Shown: positions 11,167-37,456 of the stretch, piece by piece
How the letters are laid out: each line of letters starts with the position of its first letter
Numbering within the stretch: position 1 is the first letter of the stretch
Origin: a virus
Direction: 5' to 3' (one strand)
Virus record (IMG/VR): IMGVR_UViG_3300025626_000040
Coordinates: 1-42,924 of that record
Length of the DNA: 42,924 nt
Program-made: the position numbers and the translations under genes
The notes under the pieces: model-generated
What the model was told of the DNA's origin: nothing
Seen by the model: only the letters and a program-made list of their open reading frames with translations
Databases searched by the model: none

Positions 11167-11970
11167 TTAAAATCTTAACCATTTAGGAGAATAATATAAT
11201 CCTAATCCGATTGATGGACCAGTACTTATTACTTGATTGCTGTTTAGATTGATTCCATAACCGATACCAATACCTACTGACCATCCTCCTTTCATTTTAG
11301 GTTTTTGATTTAATCTTGTATTTATAAGGTTTATATTTTCTATATTACTAAAAGTTAATCCTGGATATGATGTAGAAATTTTTAATTGATCCGCGCCGTT
11401 TATTCTTTCTATGGCTGCTAATAGACTAATCGTATGTTCTATATCAAAAGAAGCATTTCCATAATTTAATCCAGTATCATGTCTTGTTATTAACATATTA
11501 CCCATTAAATTTCTAGAATTACCATTACCAAAATCATCAAACTTAGAAAACGTTAATTTAGTTGTTGTTGAATCCACTTCAGATGATGTTACGTCCGCCA
11601 ATAAACTATCTTTGATATCTATATCAGCTGATAAAAGAGTATTAACTTTGTTTAAATCCTTATTTAAATTAAGAGCCTTTCTGTATTTTAAAACCAATTC
11701 ATTTTGATCATCCTTTAAATCATTTATATCAAATTCATAAGATCTTATCTTAGATATTAAATTACCGTTTTCCGCTATTAATTGATTAACAGAATCCTTT
11801 GAAGCTAAATAATTATTTAAATTTCTATCTGCTGTTTGTTGAACTACCTCTAAATCATGTTTAAGATTTTCAGTTTGATTACACTGTCTTAGAAACAATA
11901 AAACAAAAAGAGCACCCAATACAAATGTAAGGGTGTTCTTATTAGTTAATATGTTTTTAAAATTAATCAT
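11167..11970 (-). CDS. Membrane-anchored coiled-coil protein with glycine-rich beta C-terminus (candidate spanin)
   Basis: 267 aa. One N-terminal membrane helix (residues 13-27, TLTFVLGALFVLLFL), no lipobox (LRQC instead of a small residue before Cys), then a long periplasmic-type coiled coil (about 33-125), a small beta region, and a C-terminus with two glycine-alternating segments, GGWSVGIGIGYGIN and GPSIGLGLYYSP, ending in phenylalanine. An inner-membrane anchor plus coiled coil is the plan of an i-spanin or unimolecular spanin. The end resembles short amphipathic strands that enter an outer membrane; terminal Phe is a hallmark of outer-membrane beta-barrel proteins. Such proteins recur in Bacteroidetes phages. 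A lysis role is inferred; no holin or endolysin was seen in this window. Confidence 0.65.
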   Translation of the reverse strand: MINFKNILTNKNTLTFVLGALFVLLFLRQCNQTENLKHDLEVVQQTADRNLNNYLASKDSVNQLIAENGNLISKIRSYEFDINDLKDDQNELVLKYRKALNLNKDLNKVNTLLSADIDIKDSLLADVTSSEVDSTTTKLTFSKFDDFGNGNSRNLMGNMLITRHDTGLNYGNASFDIEHTISLLAAIERINGADQLKISTSYPGLTFSNIENINLINTRLNQKPKMKGGWSVGIGIGYGINLNSNQVISTGPSIGLGLYYSPKWLRF

Positions 11971-11976
11971 AATTTA

Positions 11977-13164
11977 TTATCCAAGTTGTTCTCCAAAACC
12001 ATCTCCGGAATCATCGTCCTTTGATATAACTTCATCGGCTGCATTATGTACTAATATACCATTAGCAAAATACACATCTTCTGTTTCCACATCTAGTGTC
12101 CATGTTGTAAACGGCTCATTTTTACTTATTAAGTATTTAGAAGTAATTAAAACCCATTCATTATTTTCATTTAACATATATTCTCCCACATCAGAATCTC
12201 TTGCAGTTTTCCAAGAAACAATATTATCTGCGTTTTTAATTAATATAGGGTGTTCGTATGTAATTTTCAAAGATCCGTTATTAAAATCGTAATATGAATC
12301 ATATGAATCTATTTTAATGTTAGTTACACTCACAGAAGTAAATTCTCCTTCAAAATTATCTACATGCGATGACCAGTTTAGATAAGCATTTTCATCGAAA
12401 CTATAACCGTTAACATTAAAGGACAATAATGCGTCTCCAATTTTAATATTTTCAATAGCTTTAGTTTCACCATTGGCCATTGTAATTAATTCACCTGCGA
12501 TGTGACATCCACCGCCACCTGTGCCACCACTGCTAGATGATGTTGCAGTTGGACTTAGTGTAGGAAAAGGTGTTGGATCCAGTGTTGTCGCTTTTGGCGT
12601 TGAAACTGGTGTTTCCGATACTGTCGCTATTGGCGTTGAAACTGGTGTTTCCGATACTGTTGCTATTGGCGTTGGAACCGGAGTTGCAGATGCTGTCGCT
12701 ATTGGTGTTGGAACCGGCGTTGCAGATGCTGTCGCTATTGGCGTTGGAACCGGTGTTGCAGCTGCAGTAGGCACTGGCGTTGAAACCGGCGTTGTCGCTA
12801 CTGTAGGTATTGGTGTTGAAACCGGTGTTGTCGCTACTGTAGGTATTGGTGTTGAAACCGGCGTTGTCGCTACTGTAGGTATTGGCGTTGAAGTTGGAGC
12901 CGCAGTTGGTGCAGGCGTTGAAGTTGGCGTAATAACTGTATTACCAGCCTGAGTCACTTCAATAGTATCAATTGTACTTGTGTTAGCATGTCTAACAGTA
13001 AGCGTTGCGTTTCTGGCAACACCCGAATTAGGCGCTACTGTAATTGTCCAATCATCAGTAGTTCCCACCCTTACGATTGTAATCCAATTAGGTGGTGTAT
13101 CCCATGAATATGAAGTCCCTAGGGGTGTGATATTCACTGTTCTTATGTATTCGTTTGCTGCCAT
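11977..13164 (-). CDS. BACON-domain adhesin with Pro/Thr linker and C-terminal Hint (intein-like) domain
   Basis: 395 aa in three parts. Residues 8-74 form a BACON domain: SWDTPPNWITI, NSGVARNATLTVRH and IEVTQAG are its typical strands. Residues 78-207 are a Pro/Thr/Ala/Val repeat with a 12-residue unit (ATPVPTPIATAS type). After GGTGGGG comes a Hint domain (220-374): Cys220 starts block A (CHIAGELITMANG, KIGD), TYEHPI (302-307) is block B with His305, and VYFANGILVHN ends in His373-Asn374. The residue after Asn374 is Ala, not Cys/Ser/Thr, which is the bacterial intein-like type A pattern: cleavage or trans-ligation is expected rather than efficient splicing. A 21-residue acidic tail follows. 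BACON domains are linked to carbohydrate or mucin binding in Bacteroidetes and their phages. The expected result is a processed receptor-binding fibre tip; this is inference. Confidence 0.85.
   Translation of the reverse strand: MAANEYIRTVNITPLGTSYSWDTPPNWITIVRVGTTDDWTITVAPNSGVARNATLTVRHANTSTIDTIEVTQAGNTVITPTSTPAPTAAPTSTPIPTVATTPVSTPIPTVATTPVSTPIPTVATTPVSTPVPTAAATPVPTPIATASATPVPTPIATASATPVPTPIATVSETPVSTPIATVSETPVSTPKATTLDPTPFPTLSPTATSSSSGGTGGGGCHIAGELITMANGETKAIENIKIGDALLSFNVNGYSFDENAYLNWSSHVDNFEGEFTSVSVTNIKIDSYDSYYDFNNGSLKITYEHPILIKNADNIVSWKTARDSDVGEYMLNENNEWVLITSKYLISKNEPFTTWTLDVETEDVYFANGILVHNAADEVISKDDDSGDGFGEQLG
12043..12507 (-). other. Hint/bacterial intein-like domain inside the BACON fibre gene
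   Basis: This is the coding stretch from Cys220 (codon TGT at 12507-12505) to Asn374 (codon AAT at 12045-12043), 155 residues. No homing endonuclease insert is present; the length fits a minimal Hint fold. Key residues seen are Cys1, block B T-x-x-H (T302, H305) and penultimate His with terminal Asn. The upstream flank is Gly4 and the downstream flank is Ala-Ala-Asp. Confidence 0.85.
12632..12781 (-). repeat. 150-bp block nearly identical to 13267-13416 (copy in the BACON-Hint gene)
   Basis: The first 50 bases (12632-12681) are identical to 13267-13316, and by eye the following 100 bases differ at only about six positions. The block encodes the Pro/Thr/Ala 12-residue repeats. Both copies are read in the same repeat frame in their respective genes, so recombination between them would keep the frame. 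Confidence 0.9.
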
Positions 13165-13202: not shown

Positions 13203-14813
13203 TTATGATGATGGGCTTCCTCCGCCTCCATCAGTAGGCACTGGCGTTTCAGATGCTGTAGACAGTGGCGTTGAAACTGGTGTTTCCGATACTGTTGCTA
13301 TTGGCGTTGGAACCGGCGTTGCAGATGCTGTCGCTATTGGCGTTGGAACCGGCGTTGCAGATGCTGTCGCTATTGGTGTTGGAACCGGTGTTGCAGCTGA
13401 TGTAGGCACTGGCGTTGGAACTGGCGTTGCAGATGCTGTAGACACTGGTGTTGGAACCGGTGTTGCAGATGCTGTAGACACTGGTGTTGGAACTGGCGTT
13501 GCAGATGCTGTAGACACTGGTGTTGCAGTTGGATTATTTTCTGCAATCGGGTGTATATTCCAAATAACATACTTATTAACATCTTGAGGATGACTTATTC
13601 TAACAACCCATGGTGTACCTATTGCTCTAAGCACAGTTTCTATAATAACTCTACTATTAGCAGAATCTACAGTGATATTTAAACCGGGTTCATTAACAGA
13701 AATGTCTGAATAGTCTAATACTGTATTTGCTGGAGTAATTACATAATTTAAATATAAAGTCTCAACTTTATTGTATACGTAATATAAATCTGCTACAGTA
13801 TCACTGTCACCTGTAGTATATAATGGATCTATAAAAATAGATGCATTACCGGTAGGAGATCCATCAGTGTTAGCATCAATATCTCCTCCAGATATAGAAA
13901 TAGTATCCGTAGCGGGTGATCCATCTGCGTTAGCATTAATATCTCCTCCGGAAATACCTATACTATCACCTACCGGAGAACCACAATCAGTACATAATTC
14001 TTTCCAAGTGTTATCGTTATAATAAGCTTCTACAATATTTAAATCAGTATTATATCTAATCATACCATATTGCGGTGTTACTGGTCTTTCTCCAGTAGAA
14101 CCCGCAGGCAATCTTAAATATCCTTTAAACTCTGCGTTTATATCAACATCTAATATACCATTACCAGAAGTTTCTAGTTTTATATTAGTGTCTCCTATAG
14201 ATTTTAGATTTACACCCGCACCTGTGGCACTAAAAAAAGAAGTATTGGCTAAGAATGTAATTTTATCTGTTGTGGCACCAAATTCTATATTAGCGCTGCC
14301 GAATGAATTTTGAAAATTAAATTTAGAATACGCGCCTGATTCAGTACTAGTTAATACTATTGTTTTGTCTACGTTGTGCTGTAATTTAATATAATTTTCA
14401 AATGTTATATCTTTTGCAATTGTCAATCTAGAATTAGTATCAATATCACCATCAGTTAAACCTTCTTCAAAACTAGGATCACCTAACCAAATAATAGGCA
14501 TATTTAAATCAGTGCCTATTTTGGGTTTTAGAATGGTAATTTCGTTTCTACCGTCATTATTAGAATCTACTTCGACTTTATACCATGGGCTATCAGTAGC
14601 ACCAGATTCACCCTTTTGACCAGTATTACCGATATCTCCTTTTTCACCTTTTTGTCCTGTTGAACCAACCTGTCCTTGATCACCTTTTTGACCTTTGGGA
14701 CCAGCAGGTCCTCCTCCATTTGCTAAAATTTGATCAAAATTATAGTTAATCTTTTCAAACTTTATAGAGTCTGAATCGCTTGGATGTAATATCTCTTGAA
14801 TGTTAATTGCCAT
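13203..14813 (-). CDS. Collagen-like tail fibre protein with Pro/Thr repeat C-terminus
   Basis: 536 aa. Residues 1-34 (MAINIQEILHPSD...INYNFDQIL) resemble the N-terminus of the 188-aa fibre-like protein upstream and may be a docking segment. Residues 35-73 are 13 unbroken Gly-X-Y triplets (GPKGQKGDQ...), a collagen-like trimer. A beta-rich shaft follows, with a typical phage-fibre segment PQYGMIRYNTDLNIVEAYYN (about 243-262) and two copies of ISGGDI(N/D)AN-x-DGSP. A globular domain (about 330-420) comes next, then about 100 residues of 12-residue Pro/Thr/Ala repeats and a GGGGSPSS end. The repeat and Gly-rich end parallel the Hint-bearing neighbour, but the Hint domain is absent. It is a probable receptor-binding side or short fibre. 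Confidence 0.85.
   Translation of the reverse strand: MAINIQEILHPSDSDSIKFEKINYNFDQILANGGGPAGPKGQKGDQGQVGSTGQKGEKGDIGNTGQKGESGATDSPWYKVEVDSNNDGRNEITILKPKIGTDLNMPIIWLGDPSFEEGLTDGDIDTNSRLTIAKDITFENYIKLQHNVDKTIVLTSTESGAYSKFNFQNSFGSANIEFGATTDKITFLANTSFFSATGAGVNLKSIGDTNIKLETSGNGILDVDINAEFKGYLRLPAGSTGERPVTPQYGMIRYNTDLNIVEAYYNDNTWKELCTDCGSPVGDSIGISGGDINANADGSPATDTISISGGDIDANTDGSPTGNASIFIDPLYTTGDSDTVADLYYVYNKVETLYLNYVITPANTVLDYSDISVNEPGLNITVDSANSRVIIETVLRAIGTPWVVRISHPQDVNKYVIWNIHPIAENNPTATPVSTASATPVPTPVSTASATPVPTPVSTASATPVPTPVPTSAATPVPTPIATASATPVPTPIATASATPVPTPIATVSETPVSTPLSTASETPVPTDGGGGSPSS
13267..13416 (-). repeat. 150-bp block nearly identical to 12632-12781 (copy in the collagen-like fibre gene)
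   Basis: This is the partner of the repeat in the next gene, 635 bp away; the difference in position and the two gene phases agree, so the repeat units are in register. Deletion between the copies would remove the BACON domain and join the collagen-like fibre to the Hint domain. Confidence 0.9.
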
Positions 14814-34809: not shown

Positions 34810-36117
34810 TTAGTTTATTTTTTTACTTACTACTATTTCAGTTTCTTCAAATCTAGCGTCTTTACTTCTAAAGCCCTCTCTAAATATTCCACCTATCATT
34901 TTACCTTTAAACATAGTGTCTCTTCCGGCAACATAACAGTTGGTTAATTCACAACTTCCATGTGTATAACATGACTCTACTTTAGACTCCTTTATTTTAG
35001 TACCTTTGTATAGACTGCACATCATAATAGCCGAACCGCTAACTTCACAATTATAAAAACTACAGTTGGTTATATTACCTGTTAATTCACAGTCTATGAA
35101 TTCAAAATTTTCTAGTAAATAAACAGTTGGAAACTTTCCATCTTTCACCTGAACCGCACCATAATCTGAATCGTAGTTTATAATTCCTGCTTCCATAGAA
35201 CCATTGACCAATAAATCAACAACTCTGTGTTTAAATCTTTCCCAGTGTACATTAATAATAGTAGGATTACTTTGTAAATCTACTAATATTTCTATATTAG
35301 GCCAATGTTTATTGACATTAGTATAATTTTTAAGTGCCTCTGAAATAGGTTTATTTTTATTTAAAATTCTCTGAAGTTCTATTTTATTTTCAGCTGTAAA
35401 TCTAGGATCATTACAAGAATGCCACATTTGCATTAAAAAACTCTCAGTTAAATAAAGTATATTATCAACTTTCTTTTCATAATCTTGACCTCCTAAGTAT
35501 CTGAATTCTAAATAATTCTTTTCCTTCTTTGAAAAGTTTATTCCATAGTATTTAGTATCGGCAAATTTAAAATTATTAGATGCAATTTGATTTGCGTCAA
35601 AATGAAATGCTTCCCATTTTGGCATTACCCATTTGACACTCTTTGCGTATGCAGAATTTTCTCTATCAGGAAAGAATTTATAAACTTGTTTTTCATCAAA
35701 TTCTAAAATAAACTTAAGAACGTTCATTCTAGAAATAAGATCTTTATCTTCTAAGAATTTTTTATCGAATGATAAATTAACATGAATTGATGCTCTATCG
35801 TTAGTGTATCCGTTTTTAGATATCCAATCTAAAACTTTGTTTACAACTATTCTAGCATTTCTATACGGAATAGGTCCTGTAACTAGTTCCATTAGACCTT
35901 TTCCACCCGACATATCTGGTTCTATTTTAAATTCTTCAGCAGATGGTTGGAAATCAGAATGAGCTTTGTCTTCCAACCTAATCTTACGATCTAGAAGCTG
36001 AGCCAAAGATTTTTTGGTAGCTTCTAGATCGATATTAGAATAGAATTCAAATTCAACACCCATGAGTGCCGCATTCAAAATTGATTCCCTTGAAGAATCT
36101 ATATTTAATTTTTGCAT
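34810..36117 (-). CDS. Amidoligase-like enzyme fused to a C-terminal beta-helix
   Basis: 435 aa. Residues about 17-235 show the pattern of the amidoligase (COOH-NH2 ligase, glutamine-synthetase-like) family: MGVEFEFYS (19-27) as the first metal-binding strand, KIEPDMSGGKGLMELVTGPI (64-83) with the D-x-S and E-L-V-T elements, ASIHVNLSF (109-117) with the histidine, and NYLEFRYLGG (201-210) with E-F-R. Such enzymes form amide bonds using ATP. Residues about 335-430 are a cysteine-rich one-sided repeat (FIDCELTGNITNCSFYNCEV...), typical of a right-handed beta-helix. The gene lies inside the baseplate cluster, so modification or cross-linking of a tail protein is a reasonable guess. Catalysis is inferred from motifs; an inactive structural derivative is possible. 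Confidence 0.7.
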   Translation of the reverse strand: MQKLNIDSSRESILNAALMGVEFEFYSNIDLEATKKSLAQLLDRKIRLEDKAHSDFQPSAEEFKIEPDMSGGKGLMELVTGPIPYRNARIVVNKVLDWISKNGYTNDRASIHVNLSFDKKFLEDKDLISRMNVLKFILEFDEKQVYKFFPDRENSAYAKSVKWVMPKWEAFHFDANQIASNNFKFADTKYYGINFSKKEKNYLEFRYLGGQDYEKKVDNILYLTESFLMQMWHSCNDPRFTAENKIELQRILNKNKPISEALKNYTNVNKHWPNIEILVDLQSNPTIINVHWERFKHRVVDLLVNGSMEAGIINYDSDYGAVQVKDGKFPTVYLLENFEFIDCELTGNITNCSFYNCEVSGSAIMMCSLYKGTKIKESKVESCYTHGSCELTNCYVAGRDTMFKGKMIGGIFREGFRSKDARFEETEIVVSKKIN

Positions 36118-36169: not shown

Positions 36170-37456
36170 TTATTGAGGCATCTTTAAAAAGACTTTCATT
36201 GAATCAACATCGATTCTTGTAATTTGAACAGTGATCTTATCACCGGCCTTAAATACACTCATAACTTCTTCACCTAATTCGCTCACGTGTAATAGTCCAG
36301 TAACACCCTCTTCTATTGTAATGAATAGACCATAGTCTTTTTTAGTCTTAACAGTAGCTTCTATTACAGAAGGAATGGTGTATCTTGATGTGATATCGCT
36401 CCATGGATTTACTACGATATTTGCTTTCTGTGTTAACGTAATTTTTGTATTACTTATGATATCTTTTACCATAAAAGATATTTGATCACCTGGTTTAATT
36501 TCTCTAGCTTTAAATTTAACTAAAGTTTCTTCGTCTAAGTCATTATTATGAATCATACCAGTTAGACATTTATTAAACTCTACAAAAACACCATATTTTG
36601 CAGTTCCTGTTACATTTCCGGTAAGAGTTTCGCCTTGTGTTTCTTTTAATGACGATATTTCATTAGGAATTAACGCTTGTAAATATTTTCTATGAGAAAC
36701 TACCAATGTGCCTCTTTCTGGTGAGAAACTAACTGGCACAACATATATTTCCTTACCAATGATGGATGAAAAATCATGCAGTTTATTAATTCCAGCAAGT
36801 GATCCTGGCATAAAACACTCAATACCTTGAATCATTACCATGTAACCTCCATTTTCAATCATATGTGTTACAGTACCAACCCATGCGGTTCCGCCTGTTT
36901 CTACACCTTCTCTAAGATCCATGAATACACGATGTTTAACACCTCCGTGAATTGATCCTAATATATGTGAGTTTTTAGTAAGTTGAGTAATTAAAACAGA
37001 TGTTTCATCACCTGGTTTTAATGCTTGTATATCAGCAGGTTCTTTATCATATTTAACGTATATTAATTCTCTATAACCAATATCAACGCTAATAAATTCA
37101 GAACTTACTCCGTAAATTTTACCTTCATGAATTTCACCTGCATTTAGTTTAGTAATTAAACTATGTTTACTGTCAAATTCAGCTAATAAGTCATAAAAAT
37201 CTTGTGCGTAATCTTCTCTAGAAAAAACTTTATCTCCTCTTAGAGTTTTGATATGTGGATTGGGTTTTCTTGTTTTAGATGGGCAACTAGCTTCATATGC
37301 GTCCCACATAAATTCACCATTTTCATCGTAATAGGATTCGGTGACATCCTGTAAATCTTCTTGTGAATTTTCAACTTGATTGTTTACTTCTTCGATTTTA
37401 GTTTCCTCGACTTTAACTTCGCCAATTCTAACTCTTTTGTTTTTTTCGTTGTTCAT
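36170..37456 (-). CDS. Ribosomal protein S1-like protein with four S1 RNA-binding domains
   Basis: 428 aa. An acidic N-terminal extension (1-100; VEETKIEEVNNQVENSQED) precedes four S1 (OB-fold) repeats at about 107-172, 190-257, 275-343 and 361-427. The last two are the clearest: GNVTGTAKYGVFVEF and VKTKKDYGLFITIEEGVTGLLHVSEL carry the G-x-V/F-V nucleic-acid-binding face, and KPGDQISFMV / KAGDKITVQI are the typical fourth strands. Bacterial S1 has six repeats with the first two docking on the ribosome; this protein is shorter. It lies in the tail cluster between a structural gene and the amidoligase-like gene. It may bind phage mRNA or the host ribosome; no enzymatic motif is present. Confidence 0.88.
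   Translation of the reverse strand: MNNEKNKRVRIGEVKVEETKIEEVNNQVENSQEDLQDVTESYYDENGEFMWDAYEASCPSKTRKPNPHIKTLRGDKVFSREDYAQDFYDLLAEFDSKHSLITKLNAGEIHEGKIYGVSSEFISVDIGYRELIYVKYDKEPADIQALKPGDETSVLITQLTKNSHILGSIHGGVKHRVFMDLREGVETGGTAWVGTVTHMIENGGYMVMIQGIECFMPGSLAGINKLHDFSSIIGKEIYVVPVSFSPERGTLVVSHRKYLQALIPNEISSLKETQGETLTGNVTGTAKYGVFVEFNKCLTGMIHNNDLDEETLVKFKAREIKPGDQISFMVKDIISNTKITLTQKANIVVNPWSDITSRYTIPSVIEATVKTKKDYGLFITIEEGVTGLLHVSELGEEVMSVFKAGDKITVQITRIDVDSMKVFLKMPQ

Follow-up and report, generated by a model that had tools for sequence, protein, structure and literature searches.

The locus raises the question of what a Hint domain would do as the last domain of a viral structural protein. In the window, by which we mean the whole 42,924-nucleotide stretch of IMG/VR virus record IMGVR_UViG_3300025626_000040, an open reading frame on the minus strand (11977-13164) encodes a 395-aa protein. 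From its N-terminus, a BACON domain (residues 24-73, 12946-13095; Pfam PF13004, 25.3 bits for a cut-off of 25) is followed by a Pro/Thr stalk (residues 79-209, 12538-12930), with a 36-bp tandem repeat at 12586-12892 and 12-aa repeats that also occur in the neighbouring fibre gene. A Gly-rich linker, GGTGGGG (residues 213-219, 12508-12528), then leads up to the putative scissile bond Gly219-Cys220, a polyGly-Cys junction seen again in relatives, and to the Hint domain (residues 220-374, 12043-12507). The latter contains the predicted nucleophile of an N-S acyl shift, Cys220 (codon 12505-12507), a block B of Thr302-Tyr-Glu-His305 (12250-12261) and a block G of His373-Asn374 (12043-12048). The protein closes with an acidic tail of 21 aa from Ala375 (11980-12042), a putative C-extein or leaving peptide whose length and +1 residue vary among relatives. 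The first-pass annotation had read a BACON domain, a Pro/Thr stalk and a complete Hint domain here, an architecture upheld by Pfam, AlphaFold2, Foldseek and the profile search, and its residue numbering (Gly216-219, Cys220, TYEH at 302-305, His373-Asn374, Ala375) was correct throughout. An assembly artefact can be dismissed, as three more contigs (L001-L003), assembled from different metagenomes, share the Hint end at 100% identity.

The gene lies in a baseplate/fibre gene run, where it is flanked on the same strand by a 267-aa gene (11167-11970), which served as the conserved anchor for retrieving syntenic relatives, and by a collagen-like fibre gene (13203-14813) that shares the stalk repeats and has a natural GGGGSPSS end. 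Together with the annotations of distant relatives, this setting makes it plausible that the 395-aa protein of this marine bacterial virus is a tail-fibre or virion-surface protein; the fibre identity given at first pass thus finds support in the gene's place, although this support is indirect. A PHROGs search with the 395-aa protein itself gave no match. Near-identical 36-bp Pro/Thr repeats are common to the two adjoining fibre genes (13243-13525 and 12586-12892), where they are likely to act as a recombination handle and as a source of the change in stalk length (382-395 aa in close relatives). Within the structural gene run, a predicted Amidoligase_2 protein (34810-36117, minus strand; PF12224, above cut-off) is possibly a protein- or cell-wall-modifying enzyme; its gene was sought in 12 virus records without a match, and the controls gave none either. 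Another phage protein, encoded beside the structural genes at 36170-37456 (minus strand), carries S1 RNA-binding domains in several copies.

We examined the Hint assignment by sequence comparison and by structure prediction. With the 395-aa protein alone, Pfam placed the Hint families under the cut-off (PT-HINT, 1.6e-4). A single-sequence search of the PDB matched the bacterial intein-like (BIL) domains 6y75/6tmm and 2lwy, and a profile of 38 relatives matched BIL domains among solved structures at 1e-20 to 1e-21. The underlying alignment comprises 38 C-terminal Hints with 22-70% identity to the 395-aa protein, which were selected on the Cys and the His-Asn and not on the block-B His; the latter is nevertheless present in 38 of 38, the block-B Thr in at least 90%, and the +1 residue is variable. 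A cultured relative outside this set, LR756508, has lost the block-B His. AlphaFold2, run with the same alignment, gave a pLDDT of about 94-98 across nearly the whole Hint core, the exceptions being one ten-residue block at 86 and the last block, at the C-terminal boundary, at 80; disorder was predicted for the Gly linker and for the last part of the tail. In Foldseek, the top-ranking structure was the BIL2 of the Tetrahymena BUBL locus; the C. thermocellum BIL came next (TMt 0.87, 2.2 A), ahead of inteins and Hedgehog. Residues 220-374 are thus confidently predicted to form a Hint fold, one of the outcomes on which the first-pass annotation had staked its reading. The Hint reading frame is also under purifying selection (dN/dS about 0.1-0.4), and the structure prediction, the profile matches and this selection together rule out a chance motif.

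In sequence and modelled fold, the Hint domain of the 395-aa protein is a type A BIL on every criterion examined, and it looks catalytically intact. It combines the predicted fold with a Cys at position 1 (Cys220) and a block-B His (His305), a C-terminal His-Asn (His373-Asn374) and no obligatory nucleophile at +1 (Ala375 here; V, L, K, G, I, T, S and others in relatives), and these features, with the Gly at -1, are the type A pattern that had been claimed for it. A class 1 intein would have Cys, Ser or Thr at +1 and would be inserted at a conserved host site between folded exteins; here the domain is terminal, with a 21-aa tail, and Hint-less relatives simply stop before the Hint position. With both the +1 nucleophile and a C-extein domain absent, an ordinary intein was rejected. 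The sterol-recognition region that follows the Hint in a Hedgehog Hog domain has no counterpart, the protein stopping 21 aa past Asn374. A polymorphic toxin with a pretoxin HINT was discarded as well, since no domain follows the Hint and PF07591 stayed under the cut-off.

The distribution of the domain was followed in syntenic relatives, which were retrieved by their neighbouring genes and not by the Hint. In many of them the cassette terminates the BACON protein; in L039, L040 and L043 the BACON protein lacks it, and a BACON-protein gene of this kind is missing from L033-034 and L044-L053. The cassette-free relatives have natural Gly/Ser/Pro-rich ends. In L037/L038 the cassette sits on the adjacent collagen-like fibre gene, and the BACON protein there ends ...TTSGGGGTGSTP. 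In L063 and L066 another Hint lineage (about 30-35% identical) occupies the same place behind a BACON domain about 80% identical to that of IMGVR_UViG_3300025626_000040. Compared with L022, dS was 0.09-0.16 in the flanking genes and 0.08 in the BACON part, but 1.33 in the Hint (Hint dN 0.22). A Hint dS so far above that of the flanks and the BACON part, between near-identical phages, indicates that the C-terminal module was exchanged. The cassette is a C-terminal module open to exchange, passing by recombination from one fibre gene to another. The genome of L038 also encodes a second C-terminal Hint (L237), after a long Thr/Ser/Trp repeat and with an Asp-Asp-Cys junction instead of polyGly.

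Beyond this lineage, the pattern GGGGCFxxGT had at least 94 distinct matches in IMG/VR. Among the matches listed (at least 94), about 48 close with a Hint that has His-Asn and is followed by a short tail (18 residues or fewer in 47 of them); in about 30 the terminal domain is Hint-like but lacks His-Asn, and only in a few is the Hint internal. Since the pattern demands polyGly and CF, it does not measure how frequent polyGly is; polyGly was seen independently in the virus's own lineage, which was retrieved without it. The Hint-bearing host proteins include baseplate-hub-like, Ig, PASTA and fn3 proteins and tip protein J. In one tail tip protein J (L132:7722-9953) the Hint is N-terminal, with polyGly at both flanks, and one phage protein (L189:8802-10574) carries three tandem Hint domains with HNKGC or HNKGGGGC junctions. 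The proteins without His-Asn (L118, L124, L153 and about 27 others) share a conserved terminal Hint-like domain of about 140 aa ending in NVNILNA or similar, and they are possibly a Hog-like group of marine phages; a model of this group was of moderate quality (pLDDT 76) and matched Hint folds weakly (TM about 0.5). That some 30 polyGly-Cys proteins lack His-Asn points to a shared chemistry at the Gly-Cys junction. A scan of genome contigs gave at least one locus, in an archaeal MAG, among the matches listed. On a Euryarchaeota MAG contig (L112), a GGGG-Cys Hint lies inside a large encoded protein.

Cultured phages carry the cassette too. A tblastn search located C-terminal Hints on tail or virion proteins of jumbo phages infecting Erwinia, Dickeya and Yersinia and, likewise, of phage NCTB, an uncultured phage of 484 kb and Alcaligenes phage Afa-NA1. 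All of these Hints have His-Asn followed by 2-11 residues, with T, V, A, K or M after the Asn. Further matches (helicase, tape measure, RNR) are ordinary inteins or unrelated, and differ in position. The NCTB protein is annotated in GenBank as 'tail protein, contains intein domain', and those of the Erwinia, Dickeya and Yersinia phages carry the label 'virion structural protein' or are called tail fibres. NCTB has two tail-type Hint proteins and a stand-alone degenerate copy, BN7874_135 (L010:8459-8920), a Hint-like protein of 153 aa that lacks the starting Cys and lies beside a Hint-tailed tail protein.

We consider it probable, from the sequence motifs and the modelled fold, that the C-terminus of this fibre or virion-surface protein is a self-processing type A BIL cassette that acts mostly through hydrolytic release of the Hint. 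Cys220, assisted by Thr302 and His305, would attack the Gly219 carbonyl in an N-S acyl shift, so that the BACON-stalk-polyGly end would become a thioester on the Hint domain, and cyclisation of Asn374 would free the 21-aa tail. As a +1 nucleophile is absent, water would resolve most of the thioester; the Hint would then detach and leave a fibre ending ...SSGGTGGGG, an end that would resemble the natural polyGly ends of the neighbouring fibre genes. In a minor or conditional outcome, an amine would take over the activated glycine. Cleavage itself, its products and the location in the virion are what we infer from these features, and the Hint could act slowly or conditionally. Since the Gly-Cys junction is common to all cassettes, formation of the N-terminal thioester is most likely the selected step.

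Hydrolysis has to be weighed against other fates of the same thioester. Type A BILs have His-Asn and no +1 nucleophile, and they predominantly cleave, with slight ligation (PMC4031507; PMC7664689), the ligation proceeding through attack by the freed amine in spite of the missing nucleophile (PMC4031507). The earlier expectation that Ala375 would keep splicing from finishing needs correcting, as splicing is not abolished and some stalk-tail product is possible. Slow splicing as the main outcome, with the Hint excised and the stalk joined to the 21-aa tail as a new acidic fibre C-terminus, would make sense of tails that are partly conserved within lineages (TDIVAKAEKT in Erwinia, acidic tails in the virus's own lineage), a conservation not expected of a tail that is merely discarded. 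However, some tails elsewhere comprise just 1-3 residues after the Asn, the +1 residue is not a nucleophile, and characterised type A BILs mostly cleave, and we regard this outcome as improbable. A transfer of the Gly219 thioester to an amine or hydroxyl of a virion protein or of the host surface, which would link the fibre covalently by analogy with BUBL proteins, is rather unlikely, yet it is a serious alternative because the BIL domains of BUBL, beside a Gly-Gly motif, reportedly give rise to ubiquitin-like proteins in activated form (PMC9200820). The closest solved structure is the Tetrahymena BUBL BIL2, flexible polyGly recurs ahead of the Cys, and the group lacking His-Asn retains only the thioester-forming side, as Hedgehog does. 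On the other hand, the acceptor is still hypothetical, polyGly is also the natural C-terminus of neighbouring Hint-less fibres, and the jumbo-phage relatives mostly have a single Gly before the Cys.

The mobility of the cassette also suits a near-neutral selfish element, which would persist by recombination and be rendered harmless by self-cleavage, without the phage gaining from it. Its presence is patchy, it shifts between adjacent fibre genes, in L063/L066 another Hint lineage has taken its place, and exchange is confined to the C-terminal part. Yet a homing endonuclease is absent, and the repeated C-terminal place on structural proteins of unrelated phages suggests selection for position; we therefore give a purely selfish cassette little credence. 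Hydrolytic release by a type A BIL cassette remains our preferred reading. Its most far-reaching extension, in which the polyGly-Cys-Hint cassette of many phage lineages would load the C-terminus of fibre or decoration proteins as a thioester for an ATP-free weld to a nucleophile of the virion or host surface, is speculative and, in our estimate, unlikely.

Several known systems share parts of this arrangement. The C. thermocellum BIL (2lwy) has the same Hint fold, Cys1, block-B His, His-Asn end and lack of a +1 nucleophile, and likewise resides in a variable, non-housekeeping host protein, whereas the present domain is the last one of a phage structural protein, with a polyGly linker, a 21-aa tail and a predicted activity. 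The Tetrahymena BUBL BIL2 (6tmm, 6y75), the best match in sequence and structure, has a Gly-ended segment directly before its Cys1, but BUBL proteins are eukaryotic and carry the BIL between ubiquitin-like domains, of which the 395-aa protein has none. The Hints of NCTB and of the Alexandravirus and Rivsvirus jumbo phages stand at the extreme C-terminus of collagen- or Ig-like tail proteins, with Gly-Cys, His-Asn and a short tail; these proteins, known from annotation, differ in lacking BACON and mostly in having a single Gly before the Cys (polyGly in NCTB). Hedgehog Hog (Foldseek match 1at0) is also a C-terminal Hint with a thioester step at Gly-Cys, after which the N-terminal part is released or conjugated, but it has a sterol-recognition region and no His-Asn, neither of which fits the 395-aa protein. 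The S74-type intramolecular chaperone autopeptidase also removes itself from the C-terminus of a tail fibre (PMC7824862), but its fold is unrelated and its chemistry is Ser/Lys. In the open-access literature, we found no description of the function of the cassette in phages, in keeping with the first-pass view that no such phage system had been described, but the architecture itself is widespread and already annotated. What is new is the architecture, and that it recurs at the end of phage structural proteins as a cassette that can be exchanged.

To our knowledge, the natural role of BIL domains is so far not clear. That they recur at the very end of phage tail and virion proteins, behind a Gly-Cys junction and on recombining cassettes, in an architecture that cultured jumbo phages share, offers a concrete setting for such a role, namely maturation of the fibre or covalent conjugation without ATP at the surface of the virus, and a naturally C-terminal, thioester-forming tag would serve as a ligation tool.
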